Below, in pieces: positions 4,494 to 14,645 of a stretch of 64,000 nucleotides of DNA. How positions within the stretch are numbered: the first letter of the stretch is position 1; every line of letters begins with the position of its first letter. Under the pieces are notes generated by a model, which was given only the letters and a program-made list of their open reading frames with translations, was not told where the DNA came from and made no database searches. The translations under genes were made by a program, and so were the position numbers. Source of the stretch: Defluviicoccus sp. (GTDB taxonomy: Bacteria > Pseudomonadota > Alphaproteobacteria > Rhodospirillales > Defluviicoccaceae); the NCBI GenBank assembly GCA_029624735.1, contig JARSSM010000006.1, positions 1-64,000 of the forward strand, written 5' to 3'.

Positions 4494-5426
4494 TCAGTGT
4501 CCCATCAGCGCTAGCACGTGTGCAGCCGCGCTTGCGGCGAGCGCTTGGAGGTCGTATCCGCCTTCCAGTGTCGACACGACCCGGCCGTTGCAGCACTTGT
4601 CGGCGACATCGAGGATTTGCCGGGTGACCCAGGCGAAGTCCGCGGTTTCCAGACGCAGTTGCGCCAGCGGATCGCGGGCATGCGCGTCAAAGCCGGCCGA
4701 AATCAGGACCAGCTCCGGCCCAAAATTGCGCAATGACGGCAGAATCTTCTCCATGTAGCCGCGCCGAAACTCCTCCGACCCGCTGCCCGGACGCAGTGGT
4801 ACGTTGCAGATGTTATTGAAGACGCCCGTTTCATGCTCCATGCCGGTGCCGGGATAGCACGGCCATTGATGGCTCGAAGCGTAGAACAGGTCGCGGTAAC
4901 GAAAGACGTGGTTCTGCGTGCCGTTGCCGTGATGGACGTCGAAATCGATCATCGCGACCCGCTCGATCCCGTGCGCCCGACGAGCATGTTCCGCGGCAAT
5001 CGCGACGTTGTTGAACAGGCAGAACCCCATCGCTGCCGATGACTCGGCATGGTGGCCAGGCGGCCGCACGGCGCAGAAAGCATTCCGGGCGGAGCCGTTG
5101 ACAACAGCGTCGACGGCCGTGCACACGGCGCCGACAGCCCGCAGGGCAGCCTCGCCGGAGGAAGAGTTGATTGCCGTGTCCGGATCAAGGTGGACATGCC
5201 CGCTCGCCGGCACGTTTTCGAAGATCGCCTCGACATAGAAGGGCGCATGCACATGTTCGATCTGGCGCGCCGTGCCTTTGGGTGCTTCGCGCCGATCCAG
5301 TTCCCGGAACTGGTCCGTGTCCAGTGCTTTGAGCACAGCCTTGAGCCGCGCTGGTGCCTCCGGATGCCAATCCCCCATCTCGTGCGCCATGCAATCCGGG
5401 TGCGTCAAAAGAAGTGTCATTACCAT
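4494..5426 (-). CDS. Histone deacetylase-like amidohydrolase (AcuC/HDAC family)
   Basis: This 310-residue zinc hydrolase belongs to the class II HDAC / acetylpolyamine amidohydrolase superfamily. The active-site pair of histidines is in RPPGHHAESS (about H125, H126). The zinc ligands are Asp and His of DFDVHHGNGT (about D163, H165) plus the Asp of SAGFDAHARDP. The start is set at the ATG beginning MVMTLLL, since upstream residues are not family-like. Bacterial members deacetylate small acetylamines or acetyl-lysine, and the substrate here is unknown. It sits upstream of xseB, an arrangement often seen in Alphaproteobacteria, with about 250 nt between, so it may be a separate transcript. Confidence 0.9.
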   Translation of the reverse strand: MVMTLLLTHPDCMAHEMGDWHPEAPARLKAVLKALDTDQFRELDRREAPKGTARQIEHVHAPFYVEAIFENVPASGHVHLDPDTAINSSSGEAALRAVGAVCTAVDAVVNGSARNAFCAVRPPGHHAESSAAMGFCLFNNVAIAAEHARRAHGIERVAMIDFDVHHGNGTQNHVFRYRDLFYASSHQWPCYPGTGMEHETGVFNNICNVPLRPGSGSEEFRRGYMEKILPSLRNFGPELVLISAGFDAHARDPLAQLRLETADFAWVTRQILDVADKCCNGRVVSTLEGGYDLQALAASAAAHVLALMGH

Positions 5427-5701
5427 GCAGCGCGGTCTCTTCTCGAAGTCAGCCCTTGTGTGAACGTCATCAACGTATTTTGGGGACTCTGCGCGCGGTT
5501 TGAAAGGACGAAAACGCCTGCAGCGCCAACAGACCATGGGGCGGCCATGCCTGACTCTGCTCGCGGTCGTGGCGGAGACGGCGCAGCACGGACACGGCCG
5601 CTCTTTTCTGAGGAGCCGCCTATCAACGCGCTATTGCAGGCGGCAAGAGAATTCGCTAACTGAAAATAACAGGAAGAATTGCGCCTCCTTGAGGGAAGCA
5701 C

Positions 5702-5875
5702 ATGGCAACCGCATTTCCGCTTGAGCCAGGCGGGCTCGAAATCGAGACCGTGTACCGCATCTTGGCCGATCTTAGAACGGCCATCCGGGCGTGCGAGGTT
5801 GACGACGCGACCTATGCGCTGCGGTTGCTACGCACCATTGAGCGAGCGCTGGTGCACGCTTCTCCAGCAGAATGA
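5702..5875 (+). CDS. Candidate small protein (57 aa), unrecognised
   Basis: A 57-residue frame starts at ATG 5702 with GAGGGAAG ending a few bases upstream, a good ribosome site. The predicted product has one long charged amphipathic helix (from about IETVYRILADL to LRLLRTIERAL) with acidic and basic faces, and no signal peptide or membrane segment. It ends 83 nt before the P-type ATPase frame and is on the same strand, so it may be cotranscribed with the ATPase-MetK pair. I recognise no family. Whether it is translated is unproven. Confidence 0.4.
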   Translation: MATAFPLEPGGLEIETVYRILADLRTAIRACEVDDATYALRLLRTIERALVHASPAE

Positions 5876-5958
5876 TGATCCAGCGGCGGAACGGGTGCGG
5901 CGTGCCGCCACAGTGCGCGCCAGGACGCGCGTGCGCAGGATCGCCGTGACAGTCTAGG

Positions 5959-8900
5959 GTGGATACGAGCGGCACCGGCGAAAGAGGTGCTGCCGAGCGC
6001 GGTATGATCGGCGGCCCTGAACGGCAGCCCACGGGGTTTGTCCGCGTTGTGCATTCCGCCGTGGCGGGGCGGGTGCGCTTTCGCGTCGGCAGCCTCAAGC
6101 GCTCGCCGGCATTGAAGCAGCAGTTGGAGCAGGCTCTGGCCGGCCGAGCGGGCGTGCTTTCAGTCTCTGCCAGCAGCCTGACGGGGACTGTTCTGGTCTC
6201 CTTCGCAGCTCCGATGGATCATGCCACACTCGCGGCGGCGATCAGCGCTGCGGCCGCTGCAAGCTGGCATGCCGCTTCGGCCGCAGGCGCCGGGCGACCA
6301 GCGCCATCAGCGATGCCGAGAGCACGGACCGTGCGGCGCACAAAGGCAGCGCCGGAGCGATCGCAGGCGAAACCTCTCGCTCAGGCGCGAGCTCAACCAA
6401 AGCCGCCGGCCGGCGCTGACGGGCGCGGCGCCGATGCGCCGATCGCAGCACCAACGTGGCATGCGCTGCACATCACTGACGTCATCGCGCTGACCAGCAC
6501 CTGCCCGCAGCAAGGGCTGTCGAGTACCGAGGCCGGTCAGCGCCTGCAGCGGTTTGGTCCCAACAGCCTGCCGCAGCCGCCGAGGCGGTCCCGGTTTGCG
6601 ATCCTCATTGAGCAGGTCGCGACCCTGCCGGTGGCGCTTCTTGCCGCATCGGCGGTGATTTCGGTCGCCACCGGTGGCGCCATCGATGCGGTCGTAATCC
6701 TGGGCGTCGTCGCCGCCAATGCAGTCATCGGTTATGCGACCGAAAGCGAAGCGGTGCGCACCATCGAGGCCCTAAGCACACCGGTGCAGGTGAGCGCGCG
6801 GGTGGTGCGCGACGGCCGCGAGCAGGAGATTGCCGTCGATCGCGTCGTCGTCGGCGATATCCAGATCCTCGAGCCGGGCAGCTATGTTGCGGCCGATGCC
6901 CGGCTTGTCGCTACGCGTGATCTTACCGCCGATGAATCGCCCCTGACCGGCGAAAGCCTGCCGGTGCGCAAGGGCGCCGATCTCATCTGCGGCGCGGATA
7001 CGCCATTATCCGAGCGGACCAACATGGTTTACCGGGGGACGGCGTTGACGGGCGGCAACGGCCGCGCGGTCGTCATCGCGACCGGTAGTGAGACCGAAAT
7101 CGGCCGCATCCAGTCCCTGATCGGCGCCGCGGAGCCGCCGCCGACGCCGATGGAAGTGCAGCTCGGGCGGCTGAGCACCCAGCTCGCGTGGCTCTCCGGC
7201 GGCATTTGCGGCGTCCTGTTCGCGGTCGGCCTGGTGCGCGGCTACGGCCTGCTGCCGATGCTGAAAACAGCGATCTCGCTTGCGGTTGCCGCCGTTCCGG
7301 AGGGGTTGCCGACCATTGCCACCACTACACTGGCGCTCGGCATCCGTGATATGCGCCGGCGCAAGGTCCTGCTGCGCCGGTTTCACGCGGTCGAGACGCT
7401 GGGCGCGGTTCAGGTGATCTGTTTCGACAAGACCGGAACGCTGACCCTCAATCGCATGTCCGTCGCCGCGCTTGCCTGCGACGGCCGGATGCTGCGGGTC
7501 GTGAACGGCGGGCTGCAGGACGAGGAGACCACGGACGTACCGGCGGTGGGCGATGCGCTGGCGCAGATCCTGCGCGTGGCTGTGCTGTGCAACGATACCG
7601 AGATCGACATCAGCGGCGGCACGGTTCATCTCAAAGGCTCGCCGACCGAAGCAGCTCTGGTTCGCCTGGCGCTCGATTTGGGCCTCGATGTCGCCGATGT
7701 GCGGCGCTGCCACCCGCTGACGGCGGCGACCTACCGAAGCGAGCAGCGCAGCTTCATGGGGACGCACCACGCGATCGAAGCCGGGGAGGGGCTGCTGGCG
7801 GTCAAGGGCAGCCCCAGCGCCGTGCTCGCCATGTGCCGGTGGCAGCTGCAGGGCGGAACGCCGGTGCCGCTGACGGACGCTGACCGGCAGGAAATCGAGC
7901 GCGCGAACGACCGGCTGGCCGGCGAAGCCCTGCGCGTCCTGGGGTTTGCCTCAAAGCTGTGCTCCGCGGCTGACGCCGGTGCGGAAGATGGGCTGACCTG
8001 GCTCGGGTTGATCGGTATGGCGGACGAGTTACGTCCGGGGATGCGCGCTCTGATGCAGACGTTTCACGGCGCCGGCATCGCGACGATCATGATCACCGGC
8101 GATCAGAGCGCGACCGCCTACGCCGTTGCCAAAGCCCTGCGATTGAGCACGAGCGGACAGGTCGAGATCCTCGACGCCGTGCGTTTGGAGGACCTGCCAC
8201 CCGATGTGCTGACGGCGCTCGCGCAACGTGCCCACGTGTTCTCGCGGGTGACACCCAGCCACAAGCTGCAGATCGTGCAGGCACTGCAGCGGGCGAACCT
8301 GGTGGTGGCGATGACCGGCGACGGCATCAACGACGGCCCCGCCCTGCGCGCCGCCAATATCGGCATCGCCATGGGACGGAGCGGCACGGAGGTCGCGCGC
8401 GACGTCGCCGATGTCGTCCTGGCCGATGACGATCCGAAGTCGATCGCAACCGCGATCGCCCGCGGCCGGGTGATCTTTGCCAATGTGCGCAAGGCGCTGC
8501 GCTTTCTGCTGGCTACCAACATGACCGAGATCATGGTCGCCGGGCTCGGCACCAGCGCCGGGCTTGGCTCGCCACTGACACCGATGCAGTTGTTGTGGAT
8601 CAACCTCTTGAGCGACGTGGTGCCGGCGCTGGGGTTGGCGCTTGAACCCGGCGACGAGGCGGTGATGCAGGAACCTCCGCATCCGGCCGGCGAGGCAATC
8701 TTGCGGCAGCAGGATCTGCGCACGATCGCCATCGAGGGTGCCGTCATCGGCAGCGGCGCGCTGGCGGCCTGCCTCTACGGCAATCTGCGCTACGGACCAA
8801 CGGCGAAAACCAGCACAATGACCTTCATGAGCCTGATCACGGCCCAGCTGCTGCACGCGGTCAGCTGCCGGTCCGACCGCCGGGTCGTGTTCGGCAGCGG

Positions 8901-9123
8901 CACGCTTGCGCCCAATCCCGTGCTGCGGAGCGCGCTCATCGGCTCGTTTGCGTTGCAGGCGCTGGGATTTCTGGTGCCGCCGCTGAGGCGCCTGCTCGGG
9001 CTGGTGCCGCTGGCTCCGCGTGACTGGGCGGTGACCGCCGCCGCCGGTGTGGCGCCCTTGCTGCGCAACGAACTGGCCAAGGGTGCTACCGTGCCGCTGC
9101 CAGTGACCAAGGCAAAGCCATGA
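5959..9123 (+). CDS. P-type cation ATPase with N-terminal HMA2-like domain
   Basis: This 1054-residue membrane pump has all P-type signatures: TGES in the actuator domain (about 329), PEGLPT in helix M4 (about 447), the phosphorylation motif DKTGTLT (D about 490) and TGDGIND (about 786). PEGLPT and the N-terminal cation-ATPase region place it nearer the Ca/Na/K/H type II-III pumps than CPx heavy-metal pumps. About residues 22-95 form an extra domain resembling HMA2 (pattern H-x3-GR-x-R, VHSAVAGRVRFRV) without a CxxC metal site, then a variable Ala/Pro-rich linker. Ion specificity is unknown. The GTG start at 5959 and an ATG at 6004 both have weak ribosome sites. Its stop overlaps the ATG of the next gene (ATGA), implying translational coupling. 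Confidence 0.92.
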   Translation: MDTSGTGERGAAERGMIGGPERQPTGFVRVVHSAVAGRVRFRVGSLKRSPALKQQLEQALAGRAGVLSVSASSLTGTVLVSFAAPMDHATLAAAISAAAAASWHAASAAGAGRPAPSAMPRARTVRRTKAAPERSQAKPLAQARAQPKPPAGADGRGADAPIAAPTWHALHITDVIALTSTCPQQGLSSTEAGQRLQRFGPNSLPQPPRRSRFAILIEQVATLPVALLAASAVISVATGGAIDAVVILGVVAANAVIGYATESEAVRTIEALSTPVQVSARVVRDGREQEIAVDRVVVGDIQILEPGSYVAADARLVATRDLTADESPLTGESLPVRKGADLICGADTPLSERTNMVYRGTALTGGNGRAVVIATGSETEIGRIQSLIGAAEPPPTPMEVQLGRLSTQLAWLSGGICGVLFAVGLVRGYGLLPMLKTAISLAVAAVPEGLPTIATTTLALGIRDMRRRKVLLRRFHAVETLGAVQVICFDKTGTLTLNRMSVAALACDGRMLRVVNGGLQDEETTDVPAVGDALAQILRVAVLCNDTEIDISGGTVHLKGSPTEAALVRLALDLGLDVADVRRCHPLTAATYRSEQRSFMGTHHAIEAGEGLLAVKGSPSAVLAMCRWQLQGGTPVPLTDADRQEIERANDRLAGEALRVLGFASKLCSAADAGAEDGLTWLGLIGMADELRPGMRALMQTFHGAGIATIMITGDQSATAYAVAKALRLSTSGQVEILDAVRLEDLPPDVLTALAQRAHVFSRVTPSHKLQIVQALQRANLVVAMTGDGINDGPALRAANIGIAMGRSGTEVARDVADVVLADDDPKSIATAIARGRVIFANVRKALRFLLATNMTEIMVAGLGTSAGLGSPLTPMQLLWINLLSDVVPALGLALEPGDEAVMQEPPHPAGEAILRQQDLRTIAIEGAVIGSGALAACLYGNLRYGPTAKTSTMTFMSLITAQLLHAVSCRSDRRVVFGSGTLAPNPVLRSALIGSFALQALGFLVPPLRRLLGLVPLAPRDWAVTAAAGVAPLLRNELAKGATVPLPVTKAKP

Positions 9124-10313
9124 AAGAGGACTTCATCTTCACGTCGGAATCGGTCACTGCCGGGCACCCCGACAAGCTCTGCGATGGCATCAGCGACGCG
9201 ATCGTCGATCGCTTCATGCAGCAAGATCCATTCTCGAAGATCGTGGTCGAAAGCGTCGTCGCCACCGGCATCTTGTTCCTCGCGGCGCGCTTTGCGTCGA
9301 AGGCGACCGTCGATCTACCGGGTGTGGCGCGGCAGGTGGTCCACGACGCGGGTTACGAGGACGAAGGCTTCAATCCCAAAACCTGCAGCGTCATGACCAG
9401 CCTCAACGAACTGCCGCGCGAGGAGCGGAGCGAGCGCGACGAACGCGAGATGGATGACGACGAGATCGAGCGCCTCGTGGTCGACAGTCAGGCGACCGTT
9501 TTCGGCTTCGCATGCGGACAGACCCCGGCCTTGATGCCGCTGCCGATCTGGCTCGCGCACAAGCTGGCGCGCCGGCTCGCTGCCGTGCGCGAGCGGGGCG
9601 ATCTCGCGTACCTGGCTCCGGACGGCAAGACGCAGGTGAGCGTCGAATACCGGCATCGGCGGGCGCGCCGGATCCATGGCTTGACCCTGATCGCGGCATC
9701 GAAGGGCGGCCGGCCAGTCAAGCGCAAACAGCTGCATGACGATCTCATGGAACACGTCGTCAAGCCGGTGTTCCGCGACGAGCCGGTCGGGCCGGACCAC
9801 GCGACCCGCATCTTTATCAATCCCTTCGGGCCGGTGCTGATCGGCGGCCCGGCGATGCATGCAGGCCTCACTGGCCGCAAGACGGGCGTTGACACCTATG
9901 GCGAGTACGCCCGCCAGAGCGGTTCGGCGCTGAGCGGCAAGGATCCGTCGCGCATCGACCGGGTCGGTGCCTACATGGCCCGCTATGCGGCCAAGAACGT
10001 TGTTTGTGCCGGCCTTGCCAGCGAGTGCGAGGTGCAGCTCAGCTATTCGATCGGATTGGCGCGGCCGGTGAGCACACAGGTCGAAACCTTTGGCACCGGC
10101 CGCATCCCCGACCGCGAGATCGCAGCACGCATTGCCCGCGCGATCGACTTCCGCCTGGCCGGGATCATTCGCCGCTTTGACCTGAGGTTCCTGCCGAGCC
10201 GCAGCGAACAGGGCTTCTACCGAAGGCTCGCGGCCTATGGCCACGTCGGCAGGCTTGATCTGGACGCTCCATGGGAGCGCACGGACAAGGTGGACGCCTT
10301 GCAGGCGGGGTGA
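9120..10313 (+). CDS. Divergent methionine adenosyltransferase (MetK) paralog
   Basis: This 397-residue protein aligns end to end with MetK. Retained features: GHPDK (H16, D18, K19), E44, the DGKTQV lysine (K170), GLTGRK (R253, K254), SGKDP (K274) and D280, which are the ATP, phosphate, Mg and K+ residues of the E. coli enzyme. Positions that contact methionine in E. coli MetK are changed: GGE to AAR (R57), QSPDI to LPREE (L98), GDQG to DSQA (S123), GDCGLTGRK to MHAGLTGRK (H247), and PSK to PSR (R278). It therefore probably binds ATP but may not use methionine normally. It starts inside the P-type ATPase stop codon. A housekeeping metK elsewhere in the genome is expected. Comparison with E. 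coli is from memory. Confidence 0.85.
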   Translation: MKEDFIFTSESVTAGHPDKLCDGISDAIVDRFMQQDPFSKIVVESVVATGILFLAARFASKATVDLPGVARQVVHDAGYEDEGFNPKTCSVMTSLNELPREERSERDEREMDDDEIERLVVDSQATVFGFACGQTPALMPLPIWLAHKLARRLAAVRERGDLAYLAPDGKTQVSVEYRHRRARRIHGLTLIAASKGGRPVKRKQLHDDLMEHVVKPVFRDEPVGPDHATRIFINPFGPVLIGGPAMHAGLTGRKTGVDTYGEYARQSGSALSGKDPSRIDRVGAYMARYAAKNVVCAGLASECEVQLSYSIGLARPVSTQVETFGTGRIPDREIAARIARAIDFRLAGIIRRFDLRFLPSRSEQGFYRRLAAYGHVGRLDLDAPWERTDKVDALQAG

Positions 10314-10338: not shown

Positions 10339-10878
10339 CTATATGCCGCCGTTGCCACCGCTCCTGCCGTTCATGAGGTGGCTTACGCCAAGGGCGGTCA
10401 ACGCCTGCCATACAAGGGAAACGGCGGGGGGAAGCACGGTGCCCCTGCGCACCTGAACCAAGGCGAGAGTCAACAGCACGAGAGCAAGCAGCGTCCACAG
10501 GTCCCAGGTCCCGCCGGCCGTGTGCCGCACTGAGCGATCGAGTGTGGATGCGGCACTGCGGAGCGCCGGACCGACGGGCGGAAGCGGCGGCGGTGTCGCC
10601 TCGAGGAGGAACAGTCCAGCGCCCGCGGCAAAGCTGCCAAGCGGCAGCAGCACTTCGGCGTGCTCGATCAGCACGCTCGCGGTCAATGGATTGACGTGCA
10701 CACGCCGCACGCCCGGACAGTCGCGCTGAAGCCGTTCGGCAAGAACGGTGAAATACGCTTGGTCGCCCCGGCGCGCCGGTATCTTGAGCCTGGCACGACC
10801 GTGAATGGCGTGGCTCAGATAGGCCGTGGGTGTTCTAGGCAACGCCTTGCGTCGGGTTTGCAGCGGCTTCCATGGCAT
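10339..10878 (-). CDS. HMA2-domain membrane protein
   Basis: The product is up to 179 residues. The N-terminal 75 residues carry an HMA2-like ferredoxin fold with the pattern H-x3-GR-x-R (HAIHGRARLKIPAR) and a later VRRVHVNPLTASVLIEH strand, the same type of domain as at the N terminus of the ATPase on the other strand. Two hydrophobic segments follow (about 80-93 and 128-140), so it is a membrane protein. No CxxC is present, so metal binding is not implied. The ATG at 10878 overlaps the upstream gene by 44 nt. A TTG at 10842, 8 nt inside that gene and after AAGG, is an alternative start. It is convergent with the MetK paralog, whose stop is 25 nt away. Function unknown. Confidence 0.75.
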   Translation of the reverse strand: MPWKPLQTRRKALPRTPTAYLSHAIHGRARLKIPARRGDQAYFTVLAERLQRDCPGVRRVHVNPLTASVLIEHAEVLLPLGSFAAGAGLFLLEATPPPLPPVGPALRSAASTLDRSVRHTAGGTWDLWTLLALVLLTLALVQVRRGTVLPPAVSLVWQALTALGVSHLMNGRSGGNGGI

Positions 10879-11146
10879 CGGAGGGCGTGCCGGCCACGGC
10901 GTCAGCCTCCTGTGCCAGTTCCGCCTTGGCCTCGGCGACGATGTCTTCGGTCATCTCGCCAAGTTCGGCCAAGGTTTCCCGGCCCTTTTCGAGCAGAACA
11001 AGGCCGCTCTTGATGGCAGCCTTCGCGGCAGGCTTGGCCGCGCGCACCAGCGGCGGCAGCAGGATGGGACCTAGAACCGTGACGCCGATCCCGATTGCGA
11101 GGCCTGTAATCACGTTCCTTTTCAGGAGTTCGTCCAGCAGCGCCAT
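10835..11146 (-). CDS. DUF5132-like small membrane-associated protein
   Basis: This 103-residue protein starts at an ATG preceded by AGGGGAAA. It opens with a hydrophobic glycine-rich segment (about residues 10-33), then a Lys/Ala-rich stretch PAAKAAIKSG and an amphipathic helix KGRETLAELGEMTEDIVAEA. This layout matches proteins annotated DUF5132, a family without known function that is often encoded beside HMA2-domain proteins and P-type ATPases (family knowledge from memory). Its stop overlaps the HMA2 gene, so the two are one transcription unit. The C-terminal tail after about residue 85 is low complexity. Confidence 0.7.
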   Translation of the reverse strand: MALLDELLKRNVITGLAIGIGVTVLGPILLPPLVRAAKPAAKAAIKSGLVLLEKGRETLAELGEMTEDIVAEAKAELAQEADAVAGTPSDAMEAAANPTQGVA

Positions 11147-11307: not shown

Positions 11308-11946
11308 TCAGGGGTGGGCAACGAGCACGATCCGGTGACCCTTTTTCTCGATCTCGGCGCGGACGAGGGTGGAGCCGGGGCGATACCACAGCTCCCCGGC
11401 CAGGTAAGGCGACGTGAACGCATAGTGCTCGGTTTCGATTTCCGCACCTTCAATCACGAGGTTCGCTCGGCCCAACGCGTTTACCGCGAGAGCAACGATG
11501 CCGCCGTCAGAGACATCAAGGACACGGCTCTGGGCGATGAATGCGGGATGCCAGGCGCATGTGGTGGTGAGAAGAGTGGAGGGGGCTGTAGCGCGACCGT
11601 TCGGTCCCTCGATCGCGATCGCCCCTCCGGTGCGCTGGGCGCGAACGTTGATCGTACCGTCGGCATCAATCGTCTCGGCGGTGAGCTCGTGGAGCCGGCC
11701 GGCCCGCCAAGTCTCTTCGACACGATGCTCGTAACGGAACATGGTGACAAAGGCGATCTTGACGCGGATGATGAACGCGTGGCTGACAGTCATCCCACTG
11801 CCGTCGGCGGATGGTGTGATGACGAAGCTGTAGCTGCCGACGGGAGCGTTTTTCCACAGCGCATCGAAGTTCAGCCGCGCCACCTCAGCCGGCGGGGTGA
11901 GCAATGCGGCGCTGGGCCGGCCCGCAGCCATGCTGTCAGGCGCCAT
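11308..11946 (-). CDS. DUF6134-like protein, no obvious signal peptide
   Basis: The frame encodes 212 residues with a beta-rich pattern. It contains LNFDALWKNAPVGSYSF near residue 25, a central region ending WHPAFI, and a C-terminal WYRPGSTLVRAEIEKKGH segment. This resembles alphaproteobacterial DUF6134 proteins, which normally carry an N-terminal export signal. Here the frame upstream is closed by the TGA that ends the S41 protease, and the first 24 residues do not look like a signal peptide. It may therefore be cytoplasmic, mis-started or decaying. It follows the protease on the same strand, separated by 36 nt. Function unknown. Confidence 0.6.
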   Translation of the reverse strand: MAPDSMAAGRPSAALLTPPAEVARLNFDALWKNAPVGSYSFVITPSADGSGMTVSHAFIIRVKIAFVTMFRYEHRVEETWRAGRLHELTAETIDADGTINVRAQRTGGAIAIEGPNGRATAPSTLLTTTCAWHPAFIAQSRVLDVSDGGIVALAVNALGRANLVIEGAEIETEHYAFTSPYLAGELWYRPGSTLVRAEIEKKGHRIVLVAHP

Positions 11947-11982: not shown

Positions 11983-13479
11983 TCATAGGCGCGGCTGCGC
12001 CTTGATGGCGGCGAGGAAGCGATCGGTAGAACCGGCCTTGAGGTAGGCCATCGCACAGCCGATCTCGCGATCCTTGGTCGGCCCGACGGGGGGACACATC
12101 TGGGTGTCGACCGACGTTTCGGCCATTTGCCGTACCGGGTCGCGGGCGGGCAGGGCGCCTGGAAGGTCGACCTCGTGCGGTTCCTGCTCGGCATCCTTGT
12201 CCTTGGCTGGAAGGAGTTGGATGCGGGGCGTAATCCCGCGCGCCTGGATCTGACTCCCCGACGGGCTGTAATAGAGCGCGGTCGTCAGTTTCAACGCGCC
12301 TCCCTCGGGCAGGCGCATGATCGTCTGGACCGAGCCTTTGCCGAACGAGGTCGACCCCATCACCGTGGCCCGGCCGTTGTCGCCGAGCGCGGCGGCGACG
12401 ATCTCCGCTGCCGAGGCGGAGCCGGCATTGATGAGAACGACGATCGGCAGGCCTGCGACCAGATCGCCCGGCTCGGCCGGAAATCCGCGTTCGCTTGCCG
12501 CCTGACGGCCGCGAATCTTGACGATCAAGCCGTTGTCCAGGAAGGCATCGGCGATCGCAACCGACTGGTCGAGCAACCCGCCAGGGTTGTTGCGGAGGTC
12601 AAGAATGAGCCCGGCCAGGTGCGGATGGTGGGCGCGCAGGTCGTTCAGGGCCTCCTCCAGCCGCTGCGCTGCCTTTTCGTTGAAGCCGACCACGCGCGTG
12701 TACGCGATGTCCCCTTCGACAAACCAGCGCACCGGCTCGATGGTGATAATGGCGCGAGCGACGCTGAGCCGCATCGGCGAGCGGCCATCACGCTGCAGGG
12801 TAAGCTCGACCTTGGTGCCGGGCTGACCGCGCATGGTGTTGACGGCGTCCTTCAAACTCATGCCGCGCACCGAAACGCCATCGATGTGGGTGATCAGGTC
12901 GCCGGTCTTGATGCCGGCCCGCTCGGCGGGCGTGCCCTCGATCGGCGCGATAACCTTGATGAGACCGTCCTGCTGGGTGATCTGGATGCCGAGGCCGCCG
13001 AACTCGCCTGACGTGACCAGCTCCGACTCGTGCAACTCCTCGGGATTGAGGTAGGCCGAGTGGGGATCGAGGGCGGCGGTCATCGCATCGAGCGCAATCT
13101 CGACGAGCTGCGCGGCCGGCAAGGAATGCGGCTTGGGGTTTTGCGCCTTGACGCCCTGAACGGCGGCCTCGATCAGCTTGCCATCCGGCAGGTCGTCCAC
13201 ATAGGCGTCGCTGATTCGTTTGTAGGCGTCGCGAAAGTGCTTGAGCTGGCGGGTATTCTCCGGATCTGCCGCGTACTCCTGGAACACGGCGGAAAATCGC
13301 CCAATCTCCCGCCGGCCGCGCTCTGACAATCGGTAGAAGTCGAAGCCCAGGGAGGCGAGCGCCGTCTCCATCTGCACGGACTGGTCCGAGCAGCCGTTCA
13401 GGCTCGGCCCGAAGCTGGCGCCGATGGCGACCGAGATCAGGACCGCGCCTAATGTCTTGACTTGATCGAACGCGATCAC
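11983..13479 (-). CDS. ctpA: S41-family C-terminal processing peptidase
   Basis: This 498-residue periplasmic serine protease has an N-terminal hydrophobic export segment, a PDZ domain (GGLGIQITQQDG to DAVNTMRGQPG) and a protease core. The catalytic serine is in NAGSASAAEIVA and the lysine in STSFGKGSVQT. CtpA enzymes trim C termini of exported proteins and peptidoglycan hydrolases. The start is GTG at 13479 with AGGGAG upstream. That GTG overlaps the stop of ctaA by 4 nt (GTGA), so translation is coupled. PSLNGC near the end of the hydrophobic segment is a poor lipobox, so lipidation is uncertain. The C-terminal about 70 residues carry several Cys and vary in the family. Confidence 0.92.
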   Translation of the reverse strand: MIAFDQVKTLGAVLISVAIGASFGPSLNGCSDQSVQMETALASLGFDFYRLSERGRREIGRFSAVFQEYAADPENTRQLKHFRDAYKRISDAYVDDLPDGKLIEAAVQGVKAQNPKPHSLPAAQLVEIALDAMTAALDPHSAYLNPEELHESELVTSGEFGGLGIQITQQDGLIKVIAPIEGTPAERAGIKTGDLITHIDGVSVRGMSLKDAVNTMRGQPGTKVELTLQRDGRSPMRLSVARAIITIEPVRWFVEGDIAYTRVVGFNEKAAQRLEEALNDLRAHHPHLAGLILDLRNNPGGLLDQSVAIADAFLDNGLIVKIRGRQAASERGFPAEPGDLVAGLPIVVLINAGSASAAEIVAAALGDNGRATVMGSTSFGKGSVQTIMRLPEGGALKLTTALYYSPSGSQIQARGITPRIQLLPAKDKDAEQEPHEVDLPGALPARDPVRQMAETSVDTQMCPPVGPTKDREIGCAMAYLKAGSTDRFLAAIKAQPRL

Positions 13480-14645
13480 CCCGGCTCCCTCTGCACAGCC
13501 GCACCCGCGGCACTGTCGTACGACGCCGCGGTGGTTGTTATCGTATTGCCACGTGCAGCGAAATGCACGGCTCGGATGGGGGTAACCGCGGCTCCCGGCC
13601 GCAACGCGAACGTGAGCCAAAGCGAAAGCGACCACACGACGACAGCGCCACCCTGGTGTGCGACGCCCAGAGGAACCGGCACGGCCATCAGGACGGTGGC
13701 GGCGCCGAGGCCATATTGTGCCGCGATCGCCAGCAGGAGCAGGCCCGCCGCGCGGTGCGCGCGCGCGTCGGCCCGCATCGCCCGGCTAGCCATGAACAAA
13801 CCGATCGCCGCGGTCAACACGACGGTCGCCAGCAGACGGTGCGTGAACTGGATGGTGGTCACGTCCTCGAAAAAGTTCACGTACAAGGGATGGTATGGAA
13901 AAATCAGCGATGGCACCAACTCGCCATCCATCAGCGGAAACGTGTTGTAGGCGAATCCGGCGTCCGTACCGGCAACGAACCCGCCCCAGATGATGGTCAG
14001 CAGCACGAGCACGCTTGTGCCCACCGCGGCCATGAACAGCGGCGGCGGCCCTGGTTGCGCTTGAGGCTGCGCCGGCTGCGGTGTCGCTACCAGGCCGAAC
14101 GCCGTCCATAGGACCAAACCATAGATGAGCAGTGCCGCGGTCAGATGGGCGACCAGCCGGTACTGGCTGACATCAGGCCGGTCGACCATGCCACTCCTGA
14201 CCATCAGCCAGCCGAGACCGCCTTGAAGTGCGCCGAGAAGAAAGATGAAAGCGAGCCGAAGGCCGAGCCGGCGGTCGATCTGCCGCCTGAGCAGAAAGAT
14301 GAGGAAGGGAAGGAGGAAAACGACCCCCATCAGCCGGCCCGTCAGCCGGTGCACGTACTCGAGCCAAAAGATGCCCTTGAACGCTTCAAGCGTCATTCCG
14401 GCGTTGATTTTCTGGTATTCTGGATAGCCCTGGTAGGCTGCGAATGTCCGCTGCCACTCCGCCTCTGTCAACGGCGGCAGCCAGCCGGTGATGGGCCGCC
14501 ATTCGACCATCGACAGCCCCGAATGCGTCAACCGCGTCGCGCCGCCGAGGACCACCATGAGGAAAACAAAGCCCGCGAGGACGAACAGCCAGATGGCTAT
14601 CCCTCTTTTCCGATCAGCCGCTGCAAGCGCGCCGACAGTACTCAT
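13476..14645 (-). CDS. ctaA: Heme A synthase (COX15/CtaA type 2)
   Basis: This 389-residue integral membrane enzyme, with about eight hydrophobic helices, oxidises the C8 methyl of heme O to make heme A for aa3 oxidases. The family segments GGATRLTHSGLSMVEWRP, LEYVHRLTGR, LVAHLTAALL, FTHRLLAT and VAHQGGAV supply the conserved heme-ligand histidines. The start is the ATG of MSTVGAL at 14645, with only a weak ribosome site. It is divergent from cobA and coupled by a 4-nt overlap to the downstream protease gene. Heme A dependence implies that the organism makes an aa3-type cytochrome oxidase. Its partners (ctaB, cox genes) are not in the window. Confidence 0.94.
   Translation of the reverse strand: MSTVGALAAADRKRGIAIWLFVLAGFVFLMVVLGGATRLTHSGLSMVEWRPITGWLPPLTEAEWQRTFAAYQGYPEYQKINAGMTLEAFKGIFWLEYVHRLTGRLMGVVFLLPFLIFLLRRQIDRRLGLRLAFIFLLGALQGGLGWLMVRSGMVDRPDVSQYRLVAHLTAALLIYGLVLWTAFGLVATPQPAQPQAQPGPPPLFMAAVGTSVLVLLTIIWGGFVAGTDAGFAYNTFPLMDGELVPSLIFPYHPLYVNFFEDVTTIQFTHRLLATVVLTAAIGLFMASRAMRADARAHRAAGLLLLAIAAQYGLGAATVLMAVPVPLGVAHQGGAVVVWSLSLWLTFALRPGAAVTPIRAVHFAARGNTITTTAASYDSAAGAAVQREPG

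Follow-up and report, generated by a model that had tools for sequence, protein, structure and literature searches.

In a stretch of 64,000 nucleotides from Defluviicoccus sp. (contig JARSSM010000006.1, positions 1 to 64,000; hereinafter, the window), the gene for a P-type ATPase overlaps that for a paralog of the S-adenosylmethionine (SAM) synthetase MetK, which we denote MetKp. This paralog has the predicted fold of methionine adenosyltransferase (MAT) and most of the residues that handle the triphosphate and Mg, but the methionine half of its active site is replaced throughout a distinct clade. The two genes form a pair in at least five bacterial phyla, so that the existence of a pump-partner system is well supported and, judging from the residue pattern, MetKp is likely not a SAM synthetase.

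The gene pair

The elements of the pair in the window are as follows.

5959..9123, + strand: P-type ATPase, type IIA-like (PMR1/SERCA-like), 1054 amino acids (aa), GTG start; assigned by Pfam, ion ligands and DKTGT
6049..6243, + strand: HMA_2 region at the ATPase N-terminus, residues 31-95 (Pfam, 30.4 bits, cut-off 30)
9120..9123, + strand: ATGA, shared by the ATPase stop (TGA) and the metK-like start (ATG)
9120..10313, + strand: MetKp, 397 aa, ATG start, predicted MAT fold, methionine half-site replaced
9288..9290, + strand: codon of R57, aligned with E55 of Escherichia coli MAT
9858..9860, + strand: codon of H247, aligned with D238 of E. coli MAT
9951..9953, + strand: codon of R278, aligned with K269 of E. 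coli MAT

The original prediction, that the stop of the ATPase gene shares an ATGA with the start of the metK-like gene, is borne out by the coordinates of the open reading frames (ORFs); an in-frame ATG is codon 16 of the ATPase ORF. In Pfam searches, the ATPase showed the full set of P-type domains, with HMA_2 barely over the cut-off, and MetKp matched all three S-AdoMet_synt domains. The nearest source-named protein is 97% identical and is labelled Rhodospirillales bacterium. A canonical metK is encoded on another contig of the same genome (G000:C10).

Conservation of the pair across bacteria

For the paralog scan, which followed an alignment of 24 close MetKp homologues, one genome per species was taken, two patterns were built from MetKp alone so that neighbouring genes were ignored, and the best 80 loci, several of them short contigs, were compared by BLAST of the window ATPase against their ORFs. 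Forty-two of these loci belong to the clade of the window MetKp and 38 are canonical metK. Of the 42 MetKp-clade loci, 40 have a family ATPase gene immediately 5' of MetKp and in the same orientation, whereas none of the 38 canonical loci does; because so large a part of the clade carries it, the arrangement is more than chance. With match starts taken as gene starts, the two genes overlap in 18 of the 40 linked loci (by exactly 4 bases in 14), lie 0-50 bases apart in 13 and 57-338 bases apart in nine; in two loci (L045, L055), the contig holds just the tail of the ATPase. Both unlinked cases are from Calothrix, where an ATPase of ~50% identity is encoded 43 kb and 192 kb from MetKp.

MetKp forms a single clade, apart from canonical MetK, and the associated ATPases form one branch relative to 30 other P-type ATPases; moreover, the pairwise distances in the two families track each other (r 0.84, 43 pairs). 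The phyla represented are at least five, namely, Pseudomonadota, Nitrospirota, Thermodesulfobacteriota, Cyanobacteriota and Chloroflexota, with one additional row labelled Myxococcota. The original prediction had been exposed to two findings, a pair confined to this strain and a paralog that never adjoins a pump elsewhere, and it withstood both. The distribution also holds in the reverse direction, although these scans scored the best few candidates per genome, so that misses are possible. Among 146 cyanobacterial genomes, 10 encode the ATPase at E <= 1e-200 and in eight of these MetKp adjoins it; of the other two, one is a Calothrix with MetKp elsewhere in the genome, and one (G632) has a family ATPase that lacks both a nearby MetKp and the HMA_2 domain. 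Among 115 Alphaproteobacteria, the ATPase family was found in two (the window's genome and G088), with MetKp adjoining in both; MetKp itself is rare, being present in 2 of 398 Pseudomonadota genomes. Plasmid cargo was considered and rejected: 162 of 72,556 plasmid records matched MetKp, all at <60% identity and at best at 46%, and none is a member of the clade.

Fischerella thermalis PCC 7521 (L046, G067) encodes three MetK proteins: two are MetKp-like, with 63% and 60% identity to that of the window, and the third has 50%.

A replaced methionine site in a predicted MAT fold

The structure of MetKp, modelled from an alignment of 75 sequences (a first model from a shallow alignment had a pLDDT of 50.3), is predicted to be a MAT fold, and together with the three domains and the match to TIGR01034 this identifies the protein as a homologue of the MAT family. 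Residues were counted across 166 paralogs in E. coli MAT numbering, with a separate tally over 47 loci rows. According to PMC3853416, E55 of the E. coli enzyme contacts the amino group of methionine, D238 the amino group and the ribose, and K269 the carboxyl group; published MAT structures place E55, Q98, D238 and K269 at the methionine moiety. These methionine-binding residues are not conserved in MetKp. D238 is His and K269 is Arg in all 166 paralogs; the E55 position holds Arg in 159, His in four, and Gln, Met and Lys in one each, never Glu; and Q98 is kept in four. In the window protein, all five methionine-holding positions are changed (E55R, Q98L, I102E, D238H and K269R). On the side of the triphosphate and Mg, H14, D16, K17, K245 and K265 are kept in 166 of 166 paralogs, K165 in 153 and D271 in 161, and the entire set (H14, D16, K17, K165, R244, K245, K265 and D271) is retained in the window and in most members. 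All 17 MetKp-bearing genomes that were checked encode a further MetK of lower identity.

The pump

In an alignment of 44 family members with 30 other P-type ATPases, the features of P2A Ca2+-type pumps (DKTGT, PEGLP in TM4, N/E in TM5 and N-x-x-[ST]-D in TM6) are present in 44 of 44 members, which keep E448 (TM4), N854 and E857 (TM5), and N882, S/T885 and D886 (TM6). The ligand set of the window ATPase (E448, N854, E857, N882, S885, D886) is apparently a complete Ca-type one; the SERCA counterparts of these residues, E309, N768, E771, N796, T799 and D800, are Ca2+ ligands. Among the 30 other P-type ATPases, Asp occupies the D886 position in 10 and Glu the E857 position in 18. Among solved structures, those of human SPCA1 and Listeria LMCA1 are nearest, followed by SERCA, and the window protein scores below the NCBIfam cut-offs for PMR1 (572 vs 798 bits), SERCA (502 vs 703) and PMCA (378 vs 507). 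From these residues, we infer that the pump probably moves Ca2+ or Mn2+. In the N-terminal HMA_2 region, which is Cys-poor, many members, including the window ATPase, have His-x4-Gly-Arg-x-Arg where the classical HMA domain has CxxC, so classical heavy-metal binding is not indicated; CxxC occurs within the first 120 residues in two of 51 ATPase ORF matches (a set that includes fragments and pumps outside the family) and in none of 25 HMA_2 matches.

Neighbouring genes and co-occurrence

Two further genes of the window belong to the cluster.

10339..10878, - strand: 179-aa stand-alone HMA_2 protein (Pfam PF19991, 49.1 bits, cut-off 30), its gene convergent with that of MetKp; same arrangement in G002 and G088
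10835..11146, - strand (to 11182 from GTG): DUF5132 protein, 103 aa from ATG (Pfam PF17195, 44.6 bits, cut-off 25)

The length of the DUF5132 protein from the ATG (10835-11146) matches the copy in G002. It consists of one hydrophobic, Gly-rich segment followed by a Glu/Ala-rich stretch, which is the layout of DUF5132 proteins in this analysis, and DUF5132 is the sole family that it matches at E <= 0.001, DUF1490 not being among the matches. It contains no Cys or His metal motif, and neither residue occurs within its last 45 residues.

Across the 42 loci, the genes near the pair encode a stand-alone HMA_2 protein (22 loci), DUF5132 (19), a repeat-rich protein (14), a small HMA_2 protein (12), MgtE (5), EcsC (4) and PHA_gran_rgn (4). 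A frequent gene order is DUF5132, HMA_2, repeat-rich protein, ATPase, MetKp; other loci share the convergent HMA_2 and DUF5132 genes of the window, and a single ORF of Tolypothrix matches both families. The repeat-rich protein, amphipathic-looking and ~210-310 aa long, is encoded before the ATPase (L037:952-1686, + strand, and 13 other loci); it has no Pfam match and is an unnamed family tied to this cluster. Directly 3' of MetKp, two Nitrospirota loci encode CorA, and one desulfobacterial locus encodes a Na/Ca exchanger protein. A broader Pfam tally covered 102 neighbours chosen from 199, with very long, very short and Calothrix or second-site ones excluded; among the 25 most frequent of its 117 families, no family of recurrent extra genes is found in >3 of the 102 neighbours.

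The components also travel together among relatives. In a set of 60 genomes, 59 besides the window's own (G000), MetKp, the ATPase family and DUF5132 are confined to the same five, namely, G000, G002, G005, G010 and G045. Within these five, MetKp identities are 59-100%, the next best among the relatives being 47%, and ATPase identities are 53-100%, the next best being 40%; three further genomes of the window's genus have none of these families. In G005, G010 and G045, DUF5132 is encoded on another contig, with an overlapping or adjoining HMA_2 gene followed by the repeat-rich and small HMA_2 proteins. Searched alone, the repeat-rich protein was found in three of the 60 relatives, all among the five, the window's genome not being one of them. 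If the three families spread independently, the odds of two identical 5-of-60 sets would be 1.8e-7. This figure overstates the weight of the match, since the five genomes fall in three genera; counted by genus, the odds are 1 in 13,244.

The conservation of the pair and this shared distribution support the original prediction of a dedicated partner in an undescribed multi-component system. Support extends to its more specific form, a four-component system with HMA_2 and DUF5132: the pair is conserved and DUF5132 follows it in the same five of 60 genomes. Across the loci, HMA_2 (22 of 42) and DUF5132 (19 of 42) are common, not constant.

A CHAD-domain protein is encoded 3 bases before the ATPase in G045 (L160:7201-8382, + strand). 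CHAD domains bind polyphosphate. A link of the cluster to polyphosphate was set aside, a search for CHAD having given no second copy in the context loci, and survives just as an idea. In a Desulfomonile metagenome-assembled genome, an ArsA-type ATPase with an HSP20-like domain is encoded directly after MetKp (L055:1535-2731, + strand).

Possible functions of MetKp and the pump system

The reading that we favour, to which we give roughly even credence, is that of a conserved divalent-cation pump system with a MAT-derived partner that probably does not make SAM and would use Mg-ATP with an anionic acceptor other than methionine. The replaced methionine site favours an ATP-using enzyme or a sensor of nucleotide or phosphate, and disfavours SAM supply. 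The chemistry of the partner is suggested by its residue pattern: MetKp may be catalytic and move adenosyl from ATP onto an acceptor in which a carboxylate, a phosphate or the like takes the place of methionine's amino group, and the product, or a bound nucleotide, could tune or serve the pump. Going by its ligand residues, the pump would export a divalent cation such as Ca2+ or Mn2+; by analogy with PacL and the mycobacterial pumps, DUF5132 with the HMA_2 proteins may scaffold it in the membrane; and MetKp, through Mg-ATP and the anionic acceptor, might supply or signal to this platform. Taken to its full extent, the proposal is of a new enzyme family under the MAT name that attaches adenosyl to an anionic acceptor other than methionine (or uses that pocket to sense polyphosphate-like ligands), its product or ligand controlling a PacL-like platform around an HMA_2-tagged Ca2+/Mn2+ pump; this we advance tentatively, as somewhat short of an even chance. 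Such a system would be the first known around a P-type ATPase whose partner is drawn from SAM biosynthesis.

Several observations weigh against the favoured reading. The TIGR01034 score of MetKp, 366.7, is above the curated MetK cut-off of 309.4. The catalytic set drifts: K165 is kept in 38 and D271 in 43 of the 47 loci rows, D271 is Ala in G005 and G010 and Glu in Methylocystis, and the adenine-stacking F230 is Phe in 111 of 166 paralogs and Val in the window. Because of this drift, some MetKp members may be inactive, and the loss of K165 or D271 in some branches together with the variation of F230 opposes a uniform reaction. Positions 98-102 lie in a loop of uncertain alignment, and the loop 251-270 before R278 is the low-confidence part of the model (block means 57-62). 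The ligands of the pump fit Ca2+ yet leave the ion unfixed, and genes for ion carriers are few: MgtE is found at 5 of 42 loci, and CorA and Na_Ca_ex each account for 2 of 102 neighbours, which makes these two no commoner than GGDEF/EAL or DUF445.

The same losses of K165 and D271 and variation of F230 keep alive a different role, clearly less probable to us, in which MetKp is a catalytically reduced sensor of a nucleotide or of triphosphate/Mg that binds the pump or HMA_2/DUF5132 and gates transport by the Mg-ATP or phosphate state. Conservation is tightest at the residues for triphosphate and Mg (H14, D16, K17, K245 and K265), the adenine and methionine contacts F230, R229, S99 and Q98 vary or change, and translational coupling in many loci would suit a subunit. 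Yet the substituted residues of the methionine pocket (H238, R269 and L262) show strong conservation of their own, as fits a specific ligand or substrate, most members retain K165 and D271, and two Calothrix genomes keep both genes unlinked.

That MetKp continues to make SAM, serving beside the pump as a local or stress isoform of the synthetase, we regard as improbable. Its passing of the NCBIfam cut-off, its MAT fold and its retention of most catalytic residues are compatible with this role, but D238 and K269 are kept in 0 of 166 paralogs and E55 is Arg in 159, and these positions and Q98 are, in published structures, the ones that sit at methionine. The human MAT variant D258G, in which activity is reported to be down by more than half, counts against it as well, as do the second MetK in 17 of 17 genomes and the lack of a prominent methyltransferase family among the 25 most frequent families of the 102 neighbours. 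SAM supply to the operon was rejected as the principal explanation in view of the replaced site and the second MetK. Least probable of all, and very much so, is that the neighbours share just an operon or a mobile island and their proteins do not cooperate. The patchy spread (2 of 398 Pseudomonadota, and absence from three of four congeners in the set of relatives) would agree with it; against it, the pair recurs on deep branches with matched phylogenies, DUF5132 with its adjoining HMA_2 gene co-occurs even on another contig, and the 72,556 plasmid records hold no MetKp (best match 46% identical).

Relationship to known systems

The component families are known, but the system and the altered MetK clade appear to be undescribed. 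MetKp shares with MetK/MAT the fold, the three domains, a score above the NCBIfam cut-off and the triphosphate/Mg residues, and differs in its replaced methionine half-site, its separate clade, its occurrence beside a second MetK and its tie to a pump. Among the PMR1/SPCA- and SERCA-type Ca2+ P2A ATPases and LMCA1, the nearest solved relatives of the pump are SPCA1 and LMCA1, and it has an intact DKTGT and aligned ion ligands; in contrast, it falls below the PMR1, SERCA and PMCA cut-offs, carries an extra N-terminal HMA_2 region, forms its own clade and has a MAT-derived partner.

A close precedent for the platform is the mycobacterial PacL-CtpC effluxosome. In PMC9374683 and PMC13043812, PacL1 is described as a membrane segment, a Glu/Ala stretch and a metal motif, its Glu/Ala repeats being needed to keep its pump in the membrane. 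In both systems, the gene for a P-type ATPase is accompanied by one for a small protein that has a single membrane segment and a stretch rich in Glu and Ala; PacL-CtpC, however, combines DUF1490 with a P1B pump, whereas the window system combines DUF5132 with a P2A pump, HMA_2 proteins and a MetK paralog, and the C-terminal His/Asp metal motif of PacL has no counterpart in the window DUF5132 protein. DUF5132 has no occurrences in the main text of either paper. Searches of the open-access literature, outside of which most subscription papers lie, turned up nothing on DUF5132 or on HMA2 domain-containing proteins, and none of the titles and abstracts listed deals with a pump-tied MetK paralog.

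If the favoured reading is correct, automatic annotation gives the name SAM synthetase to a protein from a separate clade whose chemistry differs, and a bacterial pump system partnered by a metabolic enzyme awaits description. It would also offer a direct way to approach what HMA_2 and DUF5132 do and suggest that PacL-like pump platforms reach beyond the mycobacterial heavy-metal pumps.

Other genes in the vicinity

Directly upstream of the ATPase and divergent from it is a gene for a histone-deacetylase-family protein, possibly an acetylpolyamine or acetoin-type hydrolase (4494-5537, - strand), which was not seen as a recurrent neighbour of the pair. A small ORF of ~57 aa (5703-5876, + strand), also upstream of the ATPase, has no Pfam match, and its DNA is near-identical in G002. 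Beyond the cluster, Pfam matches identify a DUF6134 protein (11308-11946, - strand) and a PDZ/S41 C-terminal processing peptidase (11983-13635, - strand).
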